DNA from: Dehalococcoidia bacterium
GTDB taxonomy: Bacteria > Chloroflexota > Dehalococcoidia > SZUA-161 > SpSt-899
Assembly: GCA_028711995.1 (NCBI GenBank)
Contig: JAQTRE010000007.1
Span: 1 to 53,816 of the forward strand
Direction of reading: 5' to 3'
Length of the DNA stretch: 53,816 nucleotides
Part shown: positions 33,176 through 39,442 of the stretch, one piece after another
Numbering within the stretch: position 1 is the first letter of the stretch
How the letters are laid out: every line of letters begins with the position of its first letter
Notes under the pieces: model-generated
Database searches by the model: none
Seen by the model: only the letters and a program-made list of their open reading frames with translations
What the model was told of the DNA's origin: nothing
Made by a program: the position numbers and the translations under genes

Positions 33176-34039
33176 ATGAGAAGGATCGTTTCGTGGGTTA
33201 AGGTTGCTGTTGTCCCGTTGCTCCTGGTGGCGATGCTGGTTTCTCTGGGGTGTTCGGATGATTCCAGTGATGCGTCCCAATCGAACCTGAAGGTGGTCAC
33301 ATCAACCTCCCTGATTTCCGCTATCGTCGAAGCGGTAGGGGGAGATCATGTCGAAGTAGTCAATATCATTCCGCCCTCACAATGTCCGGGGCATTTCGAT
33401 CTCAAACCGGGGGATGTTCGGAAGTTGGCCGATGCCGATCTCTTCCTCATGCACGGCTGGCAGGGAGAGAAGTTTTCGCAGTCGCTGATTGCGTCGGTTA
33501 ATAACGGCGCGCTTATCGTGGAAAAGCTGAATATTCCCGGCAACTGGATGACCCCGCCGGTTCAACTCCAGGCCGTTGATCAGATCACCGCTTTACTGGT
33601 CAGAGAAGATGCAGAGAATACTGCGGATTATCAGAAAGCAGCAACAGATTGCAAAGAAGAGATCGCGGCAAAAGAGGCGGAGATCAAGGCGAAGCTGGCC
33701 CAAGCGAGTCTTGCCGGAATCGATGTGCTGTGCTCGGAGCAGCAGTCGCCTTTCCTCCAATGGACCGGTTTAAATGTTGTTGCTACCTATGGTGAACCGG
33801 ATTCACTCACCCCGCAGGTGGTGAAGGATTTGATAGACAAAGGCAGAGAGGCAAAAGCGACACTTGTCATCGATAACCTGCAGAGTGGAGCAGATGCGGG
33901 GAAGGGGATCGCCGAGGAGCTTGGTGCCAGACGGATAACGCTTTCCAATTTCCCCGGTGGATTTGAGAATGCCGAAACATGGGCCAAGGCGATCGATAAG
34001 AATATCGATTTGCTCATCAAGGCATTGGCAGCCCATTGA
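33176..34039 (+). CDS. Metal ABC transporter substrate-binding lipoprotein (TroA/ZnuA family)
   Basis: Extracytoplasmic metal receptor of 287 residues. It has a lipobox (LVSLGC, Cys at about 26) and the cluster A-I fold pattern (LKVVTSTSLISAIVEAVGGD). Candidate ligands are His in CPGHFDLKPGD, His in FLMHGWQG and Asp in VIDNLQSG. The third canonical His is not seen where expected: the segment reads CSEQQSPFLQWTGL. The ligand set is therefore unusual for a zinc protein. It is first of an operon with ATPase, permease, methyltransferase, His-rich protein, CooT and Fur. Zinc, manganese or nickel are possible; the CooT neighbour points to nickel. Confidence 0.85.
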   Translation: MRRIVSWVKVAVVPLLLVAMLVSLGCSDDSSDASQSNLKVVTSTSLISAIVEAVGGDHVEVVNIIPPSQCPGHFDLKPGDVRKLADADLFLMHGWQGEKFSQSLIASVNNGALIVEKLNIPGNWMTPPVQLQAVDQITALLVREDAENTADYQKAATDCKEEIAAKEAEIKAKLAQASLAGIDVLCSEQQSPFLQWTGLNVVATYGEPDSLTPQVVKDLIDKGREAKATLVIDNLQSGADAGKGIAEELGARRITLSNFPGGFENAETWAKAIDKNIDLLIKALAAH

Positions 34040-34056
34040 CCGGAACGGAGTACAGA

Positions 34057-34845
34057 ATGAGACACGCGGCGGTTAACGAAAGTATCATCAGGATAGAGGG
34101 AGCCACCGTTTCCTATCGGGAGGATGTGGCGTTGCGAGAAGTCTCTCTGGAAATAGAAAGCGGCGAGTTCGTGGGCATCATCGGGCCGAACGGTTCCGGG
34201 AAAACGACTCTCCTTACGGTGGTTAACGGTTTGGGGAATCTATGCCAGGGAGAAGTTTGGGTTTTGGGTCAGCATCTCAATGGAAATGGCAACAGCCTCA
34301 GGAAGCGGATTGGGTATGTGCCCCAGCAGCAGAATATCGATCCGCGTATGCCGATTAATGTGCGTGAAGCGGTGATGATGGGACGCTATGGGAAAATGGG
34401 ATTGTTGAATCGTCCGGGTGCTGCCGATTGGACCATCGTGGATGAGGCGATCAGAATGGTTGGTATGAAGCATCTGGCCAGGCGTCCCATAGGCCATCTC
34501 TCCGGAGGGGAACAGCAGCGAGTGGCCATCGCCAGAGCCCTGGCTCAGGAGCCGGAGATTCTTCTTCTGGACGAACCTACGGCCTCACTGGACTGGCGGG
34601 CGCAGCGGGAACTCCTGGAAATGGTCAGGAGAATCCACGATGCGCAAGGGCTGACCACGCTCTTTGTCACCCATGACCTCAATTCCTTGCCCCAGACTTG
34701 TGATCGGTTGGTCCTGATGAAACAAGGCCGAATCTGGCATCATGGCCATCCCCGGGATGTGCTCAACGGGAATACCCTGAGCCAGCTTTACGGCGCTCCT
34801 ATTTTCATCACCGAGCCGGCAGGAATCCCGGCAGTCTTTTCATGA
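34057..34845 (+). CDS. Metal ABC transporter ATP-binding protein
   Basis: ATPase subunit, 262 residues. Motifs are Walker A GPNGSGKTT, Q-loop YVPQQQNIDPRMP, signature LSGGEQQRVAIARAL, Walker B ILLLDEPTASLD and the switch His in FVTHDLNSL. It belongs to the ZnuC/TroB group. The ATG at 34057 has GGAG 6 nt upstream; an earlier in-frame TTG at 34036 would overlap the receptor gene and is less likely. Confidence 0.93.
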   Translation: MRHAAVNESIIRIEGATVSYREDVALREVSLEIESGEFVGIIGPNGSGKTTLLTVVNGLGNLCQGEVWVLGQHLNGNGNSLRKRIGYVPQQQNIDPRMPINVREAVMMGRYGKMGLLNRPGAADWTIVDEAIRMVGMKHLARRPIGHLSGGEQQRVAIARALAQEPEILLLDEPTASLDWRAQRELLEMVRRIHDAQGLTTLFVTHDLNSLPQTCDRLVLMKQGRIWHHGHPRDVLNGNTLSQLYGAPIFITEPAGIPAVFS

Positions 34846-34939
34846 GCATCTTCAAATGGTCTATAGTAGGCCTTTGGCAGGAGGGATGCTGCGCCTCTTG
34901 ATCAGGGTTTTCTAGCACCCGCTCTAAGGAAGCTGTGAT

Positions 34940-35791
34940 ATGGACCTCTCCATTCTGAGTTATCACTTCATGCAGAACGCCATCCTGGCGGCGTTGTTTG
35001 GCGGCGTGGCTTGTGCCACTGTGGGAGTCTTCGTAGTGATCATGCGTCTTTCCTTCATCGGGGTCTGCCTTTCCCATGCTGCCTTTGCCGGAGCCATGTT
35101 TGCCCTCTGGGCCGGCTTCGATCCGCTGATTGGGGCATTCATCTTCAGCCTGGCCAGCGCTGCCGTGATCGGACCCCTGGCGGATCGGGGGGAACTGAAT
35201 GCGGATACCTCCATCGGCATTGTCTTTTCGCTGATGATCGGCCTTGCCTTTCTCTTCATGGGACTGATTAAAGGCCCTAAAACTGAGGCGCTCAATCTTC
35301 TATGGGGAAGCATTCTCATTGTCACCAATCAGGACTTGATACTCCTCGGGTCAGTGGCGCTGGTGGTGGTAATCCTGGTGACAGCCTTCTACAAAGAGAT
35401 TCAGTCGGTCATTTTCAATCGCGAAATTGCGCTGGGTGTGGGGATTCCGGCCAGCCTCGTATTCTACGGGCTTTTGTTTATGACCGGCGCCACCATCACC
35501 GTCTCACTGCCGACGATCGGCGGGCTGCTTATATTCAGCCTGATCATCAATCCGGCTGCTGCTGCGTACCAGCTAACCTACAGTTTGAAGTGGCTGTTCT
35601 TTCTGGCCGCTGCCCTTGCCGTCCTTTCCGGATGGGTAGGGTTGTGGGCTTCTTATGTCTTCGACGTTCCCAGCGGAGCAACCATTATTGTAGTCTCCTC
35701 GGTTGTGTTTGCCATTGCTACCCTCTTCTCTCCCAAGCGGAAGATCAAACGGTTGAAGGAGGATGATGAACCAGCGCCAGTATTTCAATGA
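34940..35791 (+). CDS. Metal ABC transporter permease (ABC-3 family)
   Basis: Membrane channel subunit of 283 residues with seven to nine helices of the ZnuB/TroC type (YHFMQNAILAALFGGVACAT; MRLSFIGVCLSHAAFAGAMF; EALNLLWGSILIV; GGLLIFSLIINPAAAA). AAGGAAG precedes the ATG. It follows the ATPase gene after 94 nt, and its last 29 bases overlap the methyltransferase start. Confidence 0.92.
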   Translation: MDLSILSYHFMQNAILAALFGGVACATVGVFVVIMRLSFIGVCLSHAAFAGAMFALWAGFDPLIGAFIFSLASAAVIGPLADRGELNADTSIGIVFSLMIGLAFLFMGLIKGPKTEALNLLWGSILIVTNQDLILLGSVALVVVILVTAFYKEIQSVIFNREIALGVGIPASLVFYGLLFMTGATITVSLPTIGGLLIFSLIINPAAAAYQLTYSLKWLFFLAAALAVLSGWVGLWASYVFDVPSGATIIVVSSVVFAIATLFSPKRKIKRLKEDDEPAPVFQ

Positions 35792-36488: not shown

Positions 36489-36689
36489 ATGGACGAAAAA
36501 GAGAAGCTCCGAATATTGCTGGGGCATTGGATGGAACACAACCATGAGCACTGCGAGGAGTTTCGCCAGTGGGCTGAAAAGGCAAAGGCTTTTGGCGAAC
36601 ATTCGGTCAGCGATAACATACTGGGAGCGGTCGCAAAGCTAGAAGAGGCAAACGGATTTCTGAAAAAGGCGCTTCAAAAGTCAGGGTGA
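36489..36689 (+). CDS. Small His-rich helical protein, possible metal-binding
   Basis: A 66-residue protein with two long helices. The first holds LLGHWMEHNHEHCEEFRQWA, with His at four positions and a Cys, a pattern suited to a metal site. The second (ILGAVAKLEEANGFLKKALQ) is amphipathic. Similar HNxEH small proteins occur beside nickel/cobalt genes in anaerobes, so I infer a role in metal storage or delivery, not shown by experiment. It starts 14 nt ahead of the CooT gene's stop-start region and is in the same operon. Confidence 0.65.
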   Translation: MDEKEKLRILLGHWMEHNHEHCEEFRQWAEKAKAFGEHSVSDNILGAVAKLEEANGFLKKALQKSG

Positions 36690-36703
36690 GGAAGGAGGGC
36701 AAA

Positions 36704-36910
36704 ATGTGTTTGGCTAAAGCGTATCTGATTGAAGGCAAGGAAAAACAGATGGTGCTGGAAGATGTGGCGCTTCTCACGGTTGAGGGAAGAAAGATACGAT
36801 TGAAGACCCTTTTTGGCGATCAAAAGGAAATAGCCGCGAGCGTCAAGGCAATTGACTTTCAGAATGCCAGCATCATCCTCCAATCTGAGCCTGAAAGGAT
36901 GGAGAAATGA
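36704..36910 (+). CDS. CooT-family nickel-binding protein
   Basis: A 68-residue protein beginning MCLAKAYLIEGKEKQ, the hallmark N-terminus of CooT, in which Cys2 binds nickel. The rest (VALLTVEGRKIRLKTLFGDQ; ASIILQSE) matches the small beta-barrel of the family. In Rhodospirillum the founding member supports nickel insertion into CO dehydrogenase. GGAAGGAGGG precedes the ATG at 36704, which is chosen over an upstream ATG because Cys must be second. The stop overlaps the fur start as ATGA. Confidence 0.85.
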   Translation: MCLAKAYLIEGKEKQMVLEDVALLTVEGRKIRLKTLFGDQKEIAASVKAIDFQNASIILQSEPERMEK

Positions 36911-37314
36911 GCTGCCAGCAGACATTAAAAGAAAAGGGATACCGGCTCACGCCGCAACGGGCGATGATCCTGGATGTGCTCCATCGTGCTGAGAAGCACA
37001 TCTCGGCCGAAGATATATATCACCAGGTGTCTTCCAATTATCCGGAAGTGAATAAGTCCACCGTTTACCGGACCCTTGATTTGCTCAAAGGACTGGGCCT
37101 GGTGGATGAGGCTGATCTGGGAGGCGACAAGCTCTACTATCATCATGCGGAGAAAGGGCATCACCATCATCTGATCTGCACCCGATGTGGGCGGACATTT
37201 GAAGTCGATGAGGGTATCCTTGATCCGATCAAGGATACCCTCATTAAGACGCACAATTTTGTTCCGGAATTAAGGCACCTGCCCATCTCCGGACACTGTT
37301 TGACCTGCAAATAA
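36907..37314 (+). CDS. Fur-family metalloregulator
   Basis: A 135-residue transcription regulator. The winged helix is typical (YRLTPQRAMILDVLHRAEKH; SAEDIYHQVS; VNKSTVYRTLDLLKGLGLVD). The sensing half has HHHHLICTRC and the structural zinc pairs CTRC and CLTC. Zur, Fur and Nur cannot be told apart by eye, but the CooT and His-rich neighbours and the Nur-like operator support nickel. The gene contains a perfect 18-bp palindrome at 37208-37244. It is last in the operon, a layout that gives feedback repression. Confidence 0.92.
   Translation: MSCQQTLKEKGYRLTPQRAMILDVLHRAEKHISAEDIYHQVSSNYPEVNKSTVYRTLDLLKGLGLVDEADLGGDKLYYHHAEKGHHHHLICTRCGRTFEVDEGILDPIKDTLIKTHNFVPELRHLPISGHCLTCK
37208..37244. repeat. 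Perfect 18-bp inverted repeat inside the fur-like gene
   Basis: ATGAGGGTATCCTTGATC (37208-37225), one base, then the exact reverse complement (37227-37244). The codons still read normally (DEGILDPIKDTLI). A stem of this size in an mRNA is unusual. Confidence 0.9.
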
Positions 37315-37347: not shown

Positions 37348-37647
37348 TCATCTGTTCGAGACTCTTTTCCAAACTCCTCTGGGGTCACTGACCAGTAGTA
37401 CAATTAACCACACAAGGAGGCCCATAAGGACGACACAGAAGCCGAGCGCCGTTGCATCTGCATCCGTTTCAAAGAAGTCTGCCTTCGTGTCCAGTGTGTA
37501 TGCTTTCACGTGGTCAACGAGCCACATGAGCGTTGCTCCCCAGTATAGCAAACTCAATAAACCAAACTTATACTTGTCTTCTGGAGCATTCACATACCAT
37601 AGGATGCTTGCGATTAGCGCAGCCAGCGCAGTCATCAGGAGCCACAC
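37348..37647 (-). CDS. Small membrane protein, second gene of the operator-controlled pair
   Basis: A 99-residue protein with three membrane helices (LLMTALAALIASILWYV; FGLLSLLYWGATLMWLVDHV; ALGFCVVLMGLLVWLIVLLV). It starts with GTG directly after the stop of the upstream gene, with GGAGGT in place, so the two are one unit. Within the second helix W...DHVKAY and acidic residues (DTKADFFETDADA) follow. It may pair with the other membrane protein. No family recognised. Confidence 0.65.
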   Translation of the reverse strand: MWLLMTALAALIASILWYVNAPEDKYKFGLLSLLYWGATLMWLVDHVKAYTLDTKADFFETDADATALGFCVVLMGLLVWLIVLLVSDPRGVWKRVSNR

Positions 37648-38055
37648 TTATGCACCTCCCTCGATAGCGCGCGCTCTTTCTTCCGGCAAATTCTTGGCAG
37701 CCTTGTCTTTTAGTTCAACAAATGCAACCATTATTGCCCAGACGGCTGTTACAGTTATGGTCATAGGCACGCCAAAGGTGTATATCTCATGAATCATTGG
37801 GCCGAATTCGCCTGGTTTGTCCATTGCTGTCAAGAAAGGCGGCCAGGGTTGGACTTCCCCGTGCCATATATGCTCCAAGCACAACAGCATGACTCCACCC
37901 CATAGCATTTTATTCAGCCAACCCAATCTCTGGCTCCATTTCATCGCTGTGTTTCTAGCCCCTTCCCCACCAGCGCTTTCCCCTTTCTTCTCTGCAATCT
38001 TCTGCACCGCGGTTGTTACAACCGCCTCTGCCGCAGGTACAAGAAAACATGCCAT
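37648..38055 (-). CDS. Small membrane protein, first gene of the operator-controlled pair
   Basis: A 135-residue protein. It begins MACFLVPAAEAVVTTAVQKI, a conserved-looking start seen in membrane proteins of strict anaerobes whose function I do not know. Later come LNKMLWGGVMLLCLEHIWHG and VTAVWAIMVAFVELKD. AGGAGG lies 10 nt before ATG 38055. Its promoter carries the same operator as the metal transporter, so it should respond to the same regulator. The His-containing segment LEHIWHGE inside a membrane helix could be a metal site. It may be a transporter component, but nothing more is certain. Confidence 0.65.
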   Translation of the reverse strand: MACFLVPAAEAVVTTAVQKIAEKKGESAGGEGARNTAMKWSQRLGWLNKMLWGGVMLLCLEHIWHGEVQPWPPFLTAMDKPGEFGPMIHEIYTFGVPMTITVTAVWAIMVAFVELKDKAAKNLPEERARAIEGGA

Positions 38056-38071
38056 ATCCTTTTTTCCTCCT

Positions 38072-38132
38072 ATTGCGACTATATGTTTTTGCAACTAGTC
38101 GCAATTATATCCCAAAAGAATAGTAACTTCAA
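38072..38132 (-). promoter_or_regulatory. Promoter and operator of the membrane-protein pair
   Basis: On the minus strand TTGAAG (38132-38127), 17 nt, then TATAAT (38109-38104), which runs directly into TTGCGACTAGTTGCAA. The next AACATAT-AGTCGCAA is also shared. Over the 37 positions starting at TATAAT it matches the 33.1-kb promoter at 29, with gap-free alignment. A longer inverted repeat (ATTGCGACTA...TAGTCGCAAT, 38072-38105) spans the whole operator. Confidence 0.75.
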
Positions 38133-38257: not shown

Positions 38258-39442
38258 TCATTTCTGCAGGGCAGTTGGGGTATCGGCATGGGGCTGGGAA
38301 AGAAGAGGCTCAAAGGCAATATAGCCGGCGCAGGCGCTGTCATCGGCCTTATCGTAGATCATCCCGTTGATGACGTTTTTATCCTCTGTTCCCCAATAGT
38401 TCTCGGTGGCGATCATGGCGGCGCTATCCCCCAGAATCTTCAGCGCGATCCGATCGGCCGGCCGGAATGAGTTATACCTGACCACTGTTTGCGACTGGCC
38501 AAAACTGCCCCAGTTCTGAATCCAGAAGTCGGCATTGGCGGGGAGACCGGAGGACTTTCCTTTGAAGGTGTTGTATTGAATCATAACTTTCACCGTGCCG
38601 GTGTGCCCAATAGAGAACCCGGCAGTGTTCGTAAACGTGTTGTATTCGATGGTGATGTCTCCGGCTGGATAGGCGATGTAGGAGAGGCCCGAGATATCCG
38701 TAAGCCGCGAGTGTCTCAAGCTGAATATTCCCCTCTGCGGCTGATGGGAGTTCGGCCAGAAGCTGAGGCCATTTCGAATCTCGCACTGGTCCAGATCCAG
38801 AAGGGTATTTGCGTCCGAATTCCCGGCGTTGAAGAAGTCGGCAATGCCCCCGCCATCAAAGACGATGGGCTTTTCGGCGGTTCCGTGGGCGGTGAGGGTC
38901 CCCTTCAGGCTGAACATGGTGCCAACTTGCGATGCTGTAATGGTGACGCCCGGTTCGATGGTGAGCGTTATCCCGCTGGGAATACGGACGGTTTCCTGGA
39001 CGCGATAAGGGCTAAACTCCGTTGTCCAGACGGTATCTTCAGCAATGACGCCGCCGACATCAGGGCTGGTGGCAGTAGGGACCGCAGGAGTCGGCGAGGG
39101 AGTTGGTGTGGGTGTGGATTCAGGTGTTGCCTTCGGTTCAGGTGTTGATGTTGGAGTGGGCGTTGTTGCTGTTGCTGGCGTAGCGGTTGCCTTGTTGGTT
39201 ATCGCAGAGGATTGGCTCACCGGCTCTTCGGATTTGGCATCTGCCCCGCCGCTCTTCCCGAACGAGAGCATCAGAGGGATGGCAATCAATACCACTGCCA
39301 GACACCCAACCAATATGAGCAGGGTTCGTTTGGGTATCCTCCCGACGAATGGGAGTTTTCCAGCCACCGCTCCCAGAATCCCCAGTACTTTCGCGATGAT
39401 GGATTTGGGCAGGGCCAGCAGTTTTTCAATGATCGCTTTCAC
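38258..39442 (-). CDS. Membrane-anchored beta-helix protein with Pro/Thr linker
   Basis: A 394-residue surface protein. The N-terminal 45 residues precede one membrane helix (TLLILVGCLAVVLIAIPLML). A Thr/Pro-rich linker of about 50 residues is made of PTPTPS-type repeats. The remaining part is a right-handed parallel beta-helix (GVTITASQVGTMFSLKGTLT; ITIEYNTFTNTAGFS; VMIQYNTFKGKSSG). Such folds bind or cleave polysaccharides. No catalytic site can be named. It is on the minus strand, alone. Confidence 0.75.
   Translation of the reverse strand: MKAIIEKLLALPKSIIAKVLGILGAVAGKLPFVGRIPKRTLLILVGCLAVVLIAIPLMLSFGKSGGADAKSEEPVSQSSAITNKATATPATATTPTPTSTPEPKATPESTPTPTPSPTPAVPTATSPDVGGVIAEDTVWTTEFSPYRVQETVRIPSGITLTIEPGVTITASQVGTMFSLKGTLTAHGTAEKPIVFDGGGIADFFNAGNSDANTLLDLDQCEIRNGLSFWPNSHQPQRGIFSLRHSRLTDISGLSYIAYPAGDITIEYNTFTNTAGFSIGHTGTVKVMIQYNTFKGKSSGLPANADFWIQNWGSFGQSQTVVRYNSFRPADRIALKILGDSAAMIATENYWGTEDKNVINGMIYDKADDSACAGYIAFEPLLSQPHADTPTALQK

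Follow-up and report, generated by a model that had tools for sequence, protein, structure and literature searches.

A pair of very small membrane proteins as a candidate nickel importer in the place of NikM

The 53,816-nucleotide stretch of Dehalococcoidia bacterium DNA analysed here (the window; contig JAQTRE010000007.1, assembly GCA_028711995.1) carries two adjoining genes, A and B, for small membrane proteins close to a Fur-family regulator, and raises the question of whether such a pair moves a metal and, if so, which metal and in which direction. A preliminary description of the sequence had proposed an operator-controlled pair of unknown membrane proteins at 37348-38055, and both open reading frames were found to lie exactly there, on the minus strand (Table 1). 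The true start of gene A is the ATG at 38055, the mechanical list of open reading frames having instead a TTG at 38094, and the GTG start of gene B immediately abuts the stop codon of gene A, with the smaller protein following the larger directly and containing WLVDHVKAY, as had been said. LEHIWHGE, which had been placed in a membrane segment, is indeed present in A, but it sits at the C-terminal end of predicted helix 2 and not mid-membrane.

The word unknown was well chosen, as neither Pfam, NCBIfam nor the PDB contains the A/B family. The product of gene A gave no Pfam or NCBIfam match, so no NikM/CbiM, NicO, HupE or NikABC profile, and that of gene B likewise gave no match in either collection (best DUF1129, at E 0.26); searches of the PDB by sequence returned no match for A or B. 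Among open-licence papers we found no description of a nickel system of the A/B type, nor of a lar-linked transporter like A/B. The protein family appears new, nickel uptake being a class of function that is already known.

Promoter, operator and neighbouring metal genes

Within the window, box matches with three or fewer mismatches were found three times, against 0.49 expected by chance. With at most two mismatches the box occurs at only four places in the genome as a whole, two of them being the operators of Table 1; the other two (G000 C94:3560 and C59:5900) do not lie beside metal genes and were set aside. In other Dehalococcoidia the box stands directly before A (L005, TTGCATCTATTTGCAA; Dehalococcoides-like genomes, ATGCAACAAGATGCAA) or before a fur gene that immediately precedes A (L047, TTGCAACTTGTTGCAA; L009, TTGCAACAAGGTGCAA; L007, TTGCGACCAGGTGCAA), and is weaker in L006. 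The joined promoter-operator string TATAATTGCRAC was observed at this promoter position in the window, L007, L009 and L090 and was absent from 755 kb of other loci. The preliminary description had the pair under a metal operator, and the operator, promoter and Fur-family regulator kept with the pair in Dehalococcoidia indicate that it probably is.

Table 1. Positions of the gene pair, its control elements and neighbouring metal-related genes in the window
Feature	Position	Strand	Remarks
Promoter of A/B, TTGAAG-17-TATAAT	38104..38132	(-)	-10 runs into operator
Operator TTGCGACTAGTTGCAA	38089..38104	(-)	16-bp 6-4-6 palindrome, consensus TTGCAACnnGTTGCAA; overlaps -10; 33 bp before A
Extra half-site TAGTCGCAA	38073..38081	(-)	between operator and ribosome-binding site; from inverted repeat
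Ribosome-binding site of gene A, AGGAGG	38066..38071	(-)	read from sequence
Gene A	37648..38055	(-)	135 aa membrane protein, reads MACFLVPAAEAVVTT..., with EHIWHGE; conserved core of pair
Gene B	37348..37647	(-)	99 aa, three-helix membrane protein, contains WLVDHVKAY
Fur-family regulator, probably Nur-like	36907..37314	(+)	PF01475, 1.8e-32; convergent with pair
CooT, CO dehydrogenase accessory protein	36686..36910	(+)	PF10133, 1.1e-17
ZnuABC-type metal ABC importer (SBP, ATPase, permease)	33176..35791	(+)	PF01297, PF00005, PF00950; same box upstream
Second operator TTGCAAGTGGTTGCAA	33124..33139	(+)	2 mismatches; 36 bp before ABC importer cluster

The regulator is probably Nur-like, its best match in the PDB being 3EYY, the Nur protein of Streptomyces coelicolor (4.8e-25, the next at 3.5e-22). 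On alignment with Nur, examined for the nickel-binding His of its M- and Ni-sites, several histidines are common to both, but SHAHLG and HHHIH of Nur read DEADLG and GHHHH in the window. The half-sites of the operator agree with the published Nur box, tTGCaa-N5-ttGCAA with half-site TTGCAA (PMC3919588), but the spacing is N4 and not N5 in the window, L005, L047, L090 and L091.

The ABC importer is followed by a methyltransferase gene, then by that for CooT, a nickel protein, and then by the Fur-family gene. Since the importer has the operator in common with the pair and lies upstream of CooT and the Nur-like regulator, it may carry nickel and not zinc. A reading of the locus as an iron or zinc system, made from the Fur gene and the ZnuABC-type neighbour alone, was dropped because in relatives of the pair the linkage is to nickel genes. 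A 66-aa open reading frame rich in His and Glu (MDEKEKLRILLGHWMEHNHEHCEEF...), which lies at 36489-36689 between the methyltransferase and CooT, has no family match and could encode a small metal-binding protein. Upstream of the pair, at 38258-39442 on the minus strand, is a gene for a beta-helix-like protein with a TonB-like proline/threonine-rich stretch, which appears unrelated.

Conservation and predicted structure

A scan of 85,000 genomes, one per species, returned 353 relatives of A, and the 80 kept for closer comparison came from Dehalococcoidia, Lachnospiraceae and other Clostridia, Treponema, Elusimicrobia, Endomicrobia, Synergistaceae, Alistipes (Bacteroidota) and the archaeal Thermoplasmatota. 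In nearly all of 82 loci B was found next to A in the same orientation, a few bases away at most or overlapping it by 4. Because they are conserved in relatives, A and B are genes and not chance open reading frames. Aligned relatives of A have M1, C3, F4, V6, P7, W46, H62, G66, E67, P73, E90 and W106 invariant and E10, E61, W64 and H65 nearly so, and those of B have W17, D45 and W80 invariant.

AlphaFold2 (AF2) models predicted three helices in each protein, at residues 5-27, 31-64 and 81-121 of A (mean pLDDT 82, pTM 0.59) and at 2-20, 28-53 and 63-87 of B (mean pLDDT 93). Foldseek searches with these monomer models, that of A being of moderate quality, gave no significant match. Judged from sequence comparison the two are distant paralogues: the profile of B detects A at 1e-5 to 1e-9, a direct tblastn match between them has an E value of 1.5e-4, and profile-profile alignment joins their helices 2-3 at E 1.3e-4, but with a probability of only 54%. 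A appears to be the core component, as in two Dehalococcoidia lineages (L009:6001-6372 and L047:6001-6387) it stands directly behind fur with no B adjacent or elsewhere in the fetched stretch, and as B is frameshifted by one base (L089:7038-7298) in a closed Dehalococcoides-like genome of 1,469,720 bp, though intact in its relative L090. For the same reasons an obligate A/B heterodimer is not certain.

Nickel genes beside the pair and exclusion of NikM

The loci of relatives were found to be rich in genes for nickel enzymes. A nickel-enzyme maturation gene (larB, larC, larE, urease or hypB) lies within 6 kb of the pair in 53/81 loci, a count that leaves out the L008 gene, which NCBIfam calls HydE. 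Within the same distance LarC was present in 45/81 loci, LarB in 42/81, LarE in 25/81, urease alpha in 3/81, UreG/HypB-type GTPases in 5/81, NikR in 2/81 and Fur in 7/81, with the identities of LarE, LarB, LarC, UreG, HypB, urease alpha and the NikR of L008 all above NCBIfam cut-offs. The lar genes are always on the strand of the pair, and larB usually starts from a few to about a hundred bases past the end of B, often abutting it. Such linkage would hardly be due to chance, since 12 kb makes up far less than 1% of a genome of this kind, and a link of the pair to nickel is near certain. Relatives with neither the operator nor a metal-linked context had been named as the finding that would speak against a role in metal handling; beyond Dehalococcoidia the operator was not seen, yet the metal context there is stronger and specific to nickel.

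A different metal, cobalt, zinc or iron, with the nickel genes incidental, is suggested by the ZnuABC-type importer near the pair, by the cobalt that B12-rich Dehalococcoidia need (PMC2667541) and by a regulator whose response to nickel is itself deduced, but we regard it as very improbable, as lar, urease, hypB, NikR and CooT each have a tie to nickel and were found in different lineages.

Two further neighbours were noted. In 16 loci, mostly lar-linked, a DUF3842 gene (PF12953; for example L027:5394-5807) precedes the pair by about 190 bp in the same orientation; it is a possible further nickel partner, and no mention of it was found in open-licence literature. In the Dehalococcoides-like loci the pair lies beside, and just downstream of, a hyf-like operon, which was rejected as a link to a nickel enzyme because its hydrogenase large-subunit homologue (L090:8684-10264) is without CxxC nickel-ligand motifs.

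That hydrogenase-like operon, together with the HydE-type [FeFe] maturase (by NCBIfam) that adjoins the Elusimicrobia locus L008, could suggest that the pair tethers nickel enzymes to the membrane, in a redox or a structural role. Lar and urease enzymes, being soluble, have no need of such an anchor, and no invariant His pair lies in different helices in a manner suited to heme ligation, which leaves this the least probable of the readings considered.

Co-occurrence was tested across whole genomes, 150 of Lachnospiraceae and 100 of Treponemataceae. Among the Lachnospiraceae, 25 have the pair and 97 have LarC, and LarC was found in 24/25 of the pair genomes (Fisher p 1.5e-4; this and the following Fisher p values ignore the shared ancestry of these phylogenetically related genomes and are hence optimistic). 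Among the Treponemataceae, the pair is present in 19, LarC in 24 and both in 13 (p 4.4e-6); in three of the six pair genomes that lack LarC, urease lies about 10 kb from the pair.

NikM-type importers, defined as PF01891 open frames of at least 335 aa (their separation by length from the cobalt protein CbiM being our own deduction), occur in 31/150 Lachnospiraceae, none of them pair genomes, and within the LarC-bearing Lachnospiraceae in 0/24 with the pair against 29/73 without it (p 5.9e-5). Similarly, 0/13 LarC-bearing Treponemataceae with the pair have a NikM-type protein against 7/11 without (p 9.5e-4), and it was above the cut-off in 0/19 Treponemataceae pair genomes. In some genomes that lack the pair, NikM is found a few kb or less from larC, where other genomes have the pair. 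Over all groups CbiM/NikM of any kind was present in only 3/50 pair genomes, and NicO was found in 0/150 Lachnospiraceae. Other importers must exist, so that the mutual exclusion is not complete proof, because 44/97 LarC-bearing Lachnospiraceae have neither NikM nor the pair. In the window's own genome no CbiM/NikM and no urease alpha were detected, and a full-length [NiFe]-hydrogenase large subunit was found along with further family matches; the other Dehalococcoidia checked also have [NiFe]-hydrogenase family matches, those of G175 only below the cut-off.

This distribution bears upon the main rival to an importer, that A and B form a membrane-docked nickel chaperone which takes over the nickel that another importer has brought in and passes it to LarC, UreG or HypB. 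Their very small size, the invariant Cys/His/Glu cluster at helix ends, the tight linkage to maturation genes and the occurrence of A without B would all suit a chaperone. The pair is, however, common to systems with unrelated nickel-insertion proteins (lar, urease and hydrogenase), and it excludes NikM instead of accompanying it, as expected of a substitute importer and not of a helper; we consider the chaperone unlikely.

Export of nickel, averting toxicity while nickel enzymes are loaded, would fit the CsoR/RcnR-type gene that precedes A by about 80-95 bp, in the same orientation, in three Clostridia (L032:5610-5921, L055:5622-5921 and L069:23-592) and is divergent from the pair in L076, regulators of this type being usually tied to efflux. 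Efflux is nevertheless distinctly improbable in view of the operator, which in the window the pair shares with the cluster of ABC uptake genes and a Fur-family regulator, the mutual exclusion with an importer, and the frequency of the pair in genomes that need nickel.

A proposed importer and its relation to known systems

Linkage to and co-occurrence with nickel enzymes, and substitution for a known importer, were thus both found for the pair. We consider it likely that A and B together are a nickel importer of an undescribed family, taking the place of the NikM-type importer. Slightly less firmly, though still with reasonable confidence, we propose that they found a family of very small, ATPase-independent nickel importers made of two paralogous three-helix proteins, a family that is widespread among the anaerobes of gut and rumen and in Treponema, Dehalococcoidia and Thermoplasmatota, and that replaces NikM in lar operons. 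The suggestion in the preliminary description of an undescribed metal importer or exporter component is in keeping with this, the evidence now pointing to nickel and to import, neither of which it had named or favoured.

In the proposed mechanism, a hetero-oligomer of A and B, of whatever stoichiometry, probably carries Ni2+ along a path lined by conserved Glu, His and Cys, for which E61, H62, H65, E67 and E90 of A, C3 and E10 near its N terminus and D45 of B are candidates that may contact the metal. As no ATPase gene regularly accompanies the pair, we infer a secondary carrier or channel in which uptake would not be ATPase-driven. In Dehalococcoidia a metal-loaded Nur-like Fur protein, sensing what is presumably nickel, would bind the TTGCAACnnGTTGCAA box over the -10 and shut the promoter at nickel sufficiency. 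The nickel enzyme of Clostridia and Treponema would be fed by the pair, which there shares an apparent operon with larB/C/E or clusters with urease genes.

In a survey of 2009, 62 bacteria were found to have nickel enzymes but no nickel transporter that could be recognised, and its authors suggested that there are others (PMC2667541). A and B are a concrete and widespread candidate for these missing transporters which, if the proposal is true, would explain the nickel supply of lar- and urease-bearing gut anaerobes and of Dehalococcoidia with [NiFe] hydrogenases, and an unannotated family gains a directly testable function. The box and its Nur-like regulator would, moreover, extend nickel-sensing Fur proteins beyond Actinobacteria. 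Of the solved structures Nur (3EYY) is the one nearest to the window Fur, and the TTGCAA half-site is common to both, but the target genes of Nur in S. coelicolor differ from those in the window, as does the spacing of its box.

Among transporters, the NikM/NikMN importers of the ECF type (PF01891) occupy the same niche as the pair, lar-linked in nickel-using Clostridia and Treponema, and the two are mutually exclusive, but the pair, two three-helix proteins of 99 and 135 aa, has no PF01891 match, and an ATPase gene was not recorded among its regular immediate neighbours. NiCoT/NicO (PF03824) and HupE/UreJ are ATPase-independent nickel carriers with His, Asp and Glu in their helices; they are single larger polypeptides, whereas A and B have no Pfam match to either. 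Paired SMR proteins offer an analogy only, being, like A and B, adjacent paralogous small membrane proteins that likely form hetero-oligomers; they have four helices against the three of A and B, which have no SMR match and stand in a metal-linked context.
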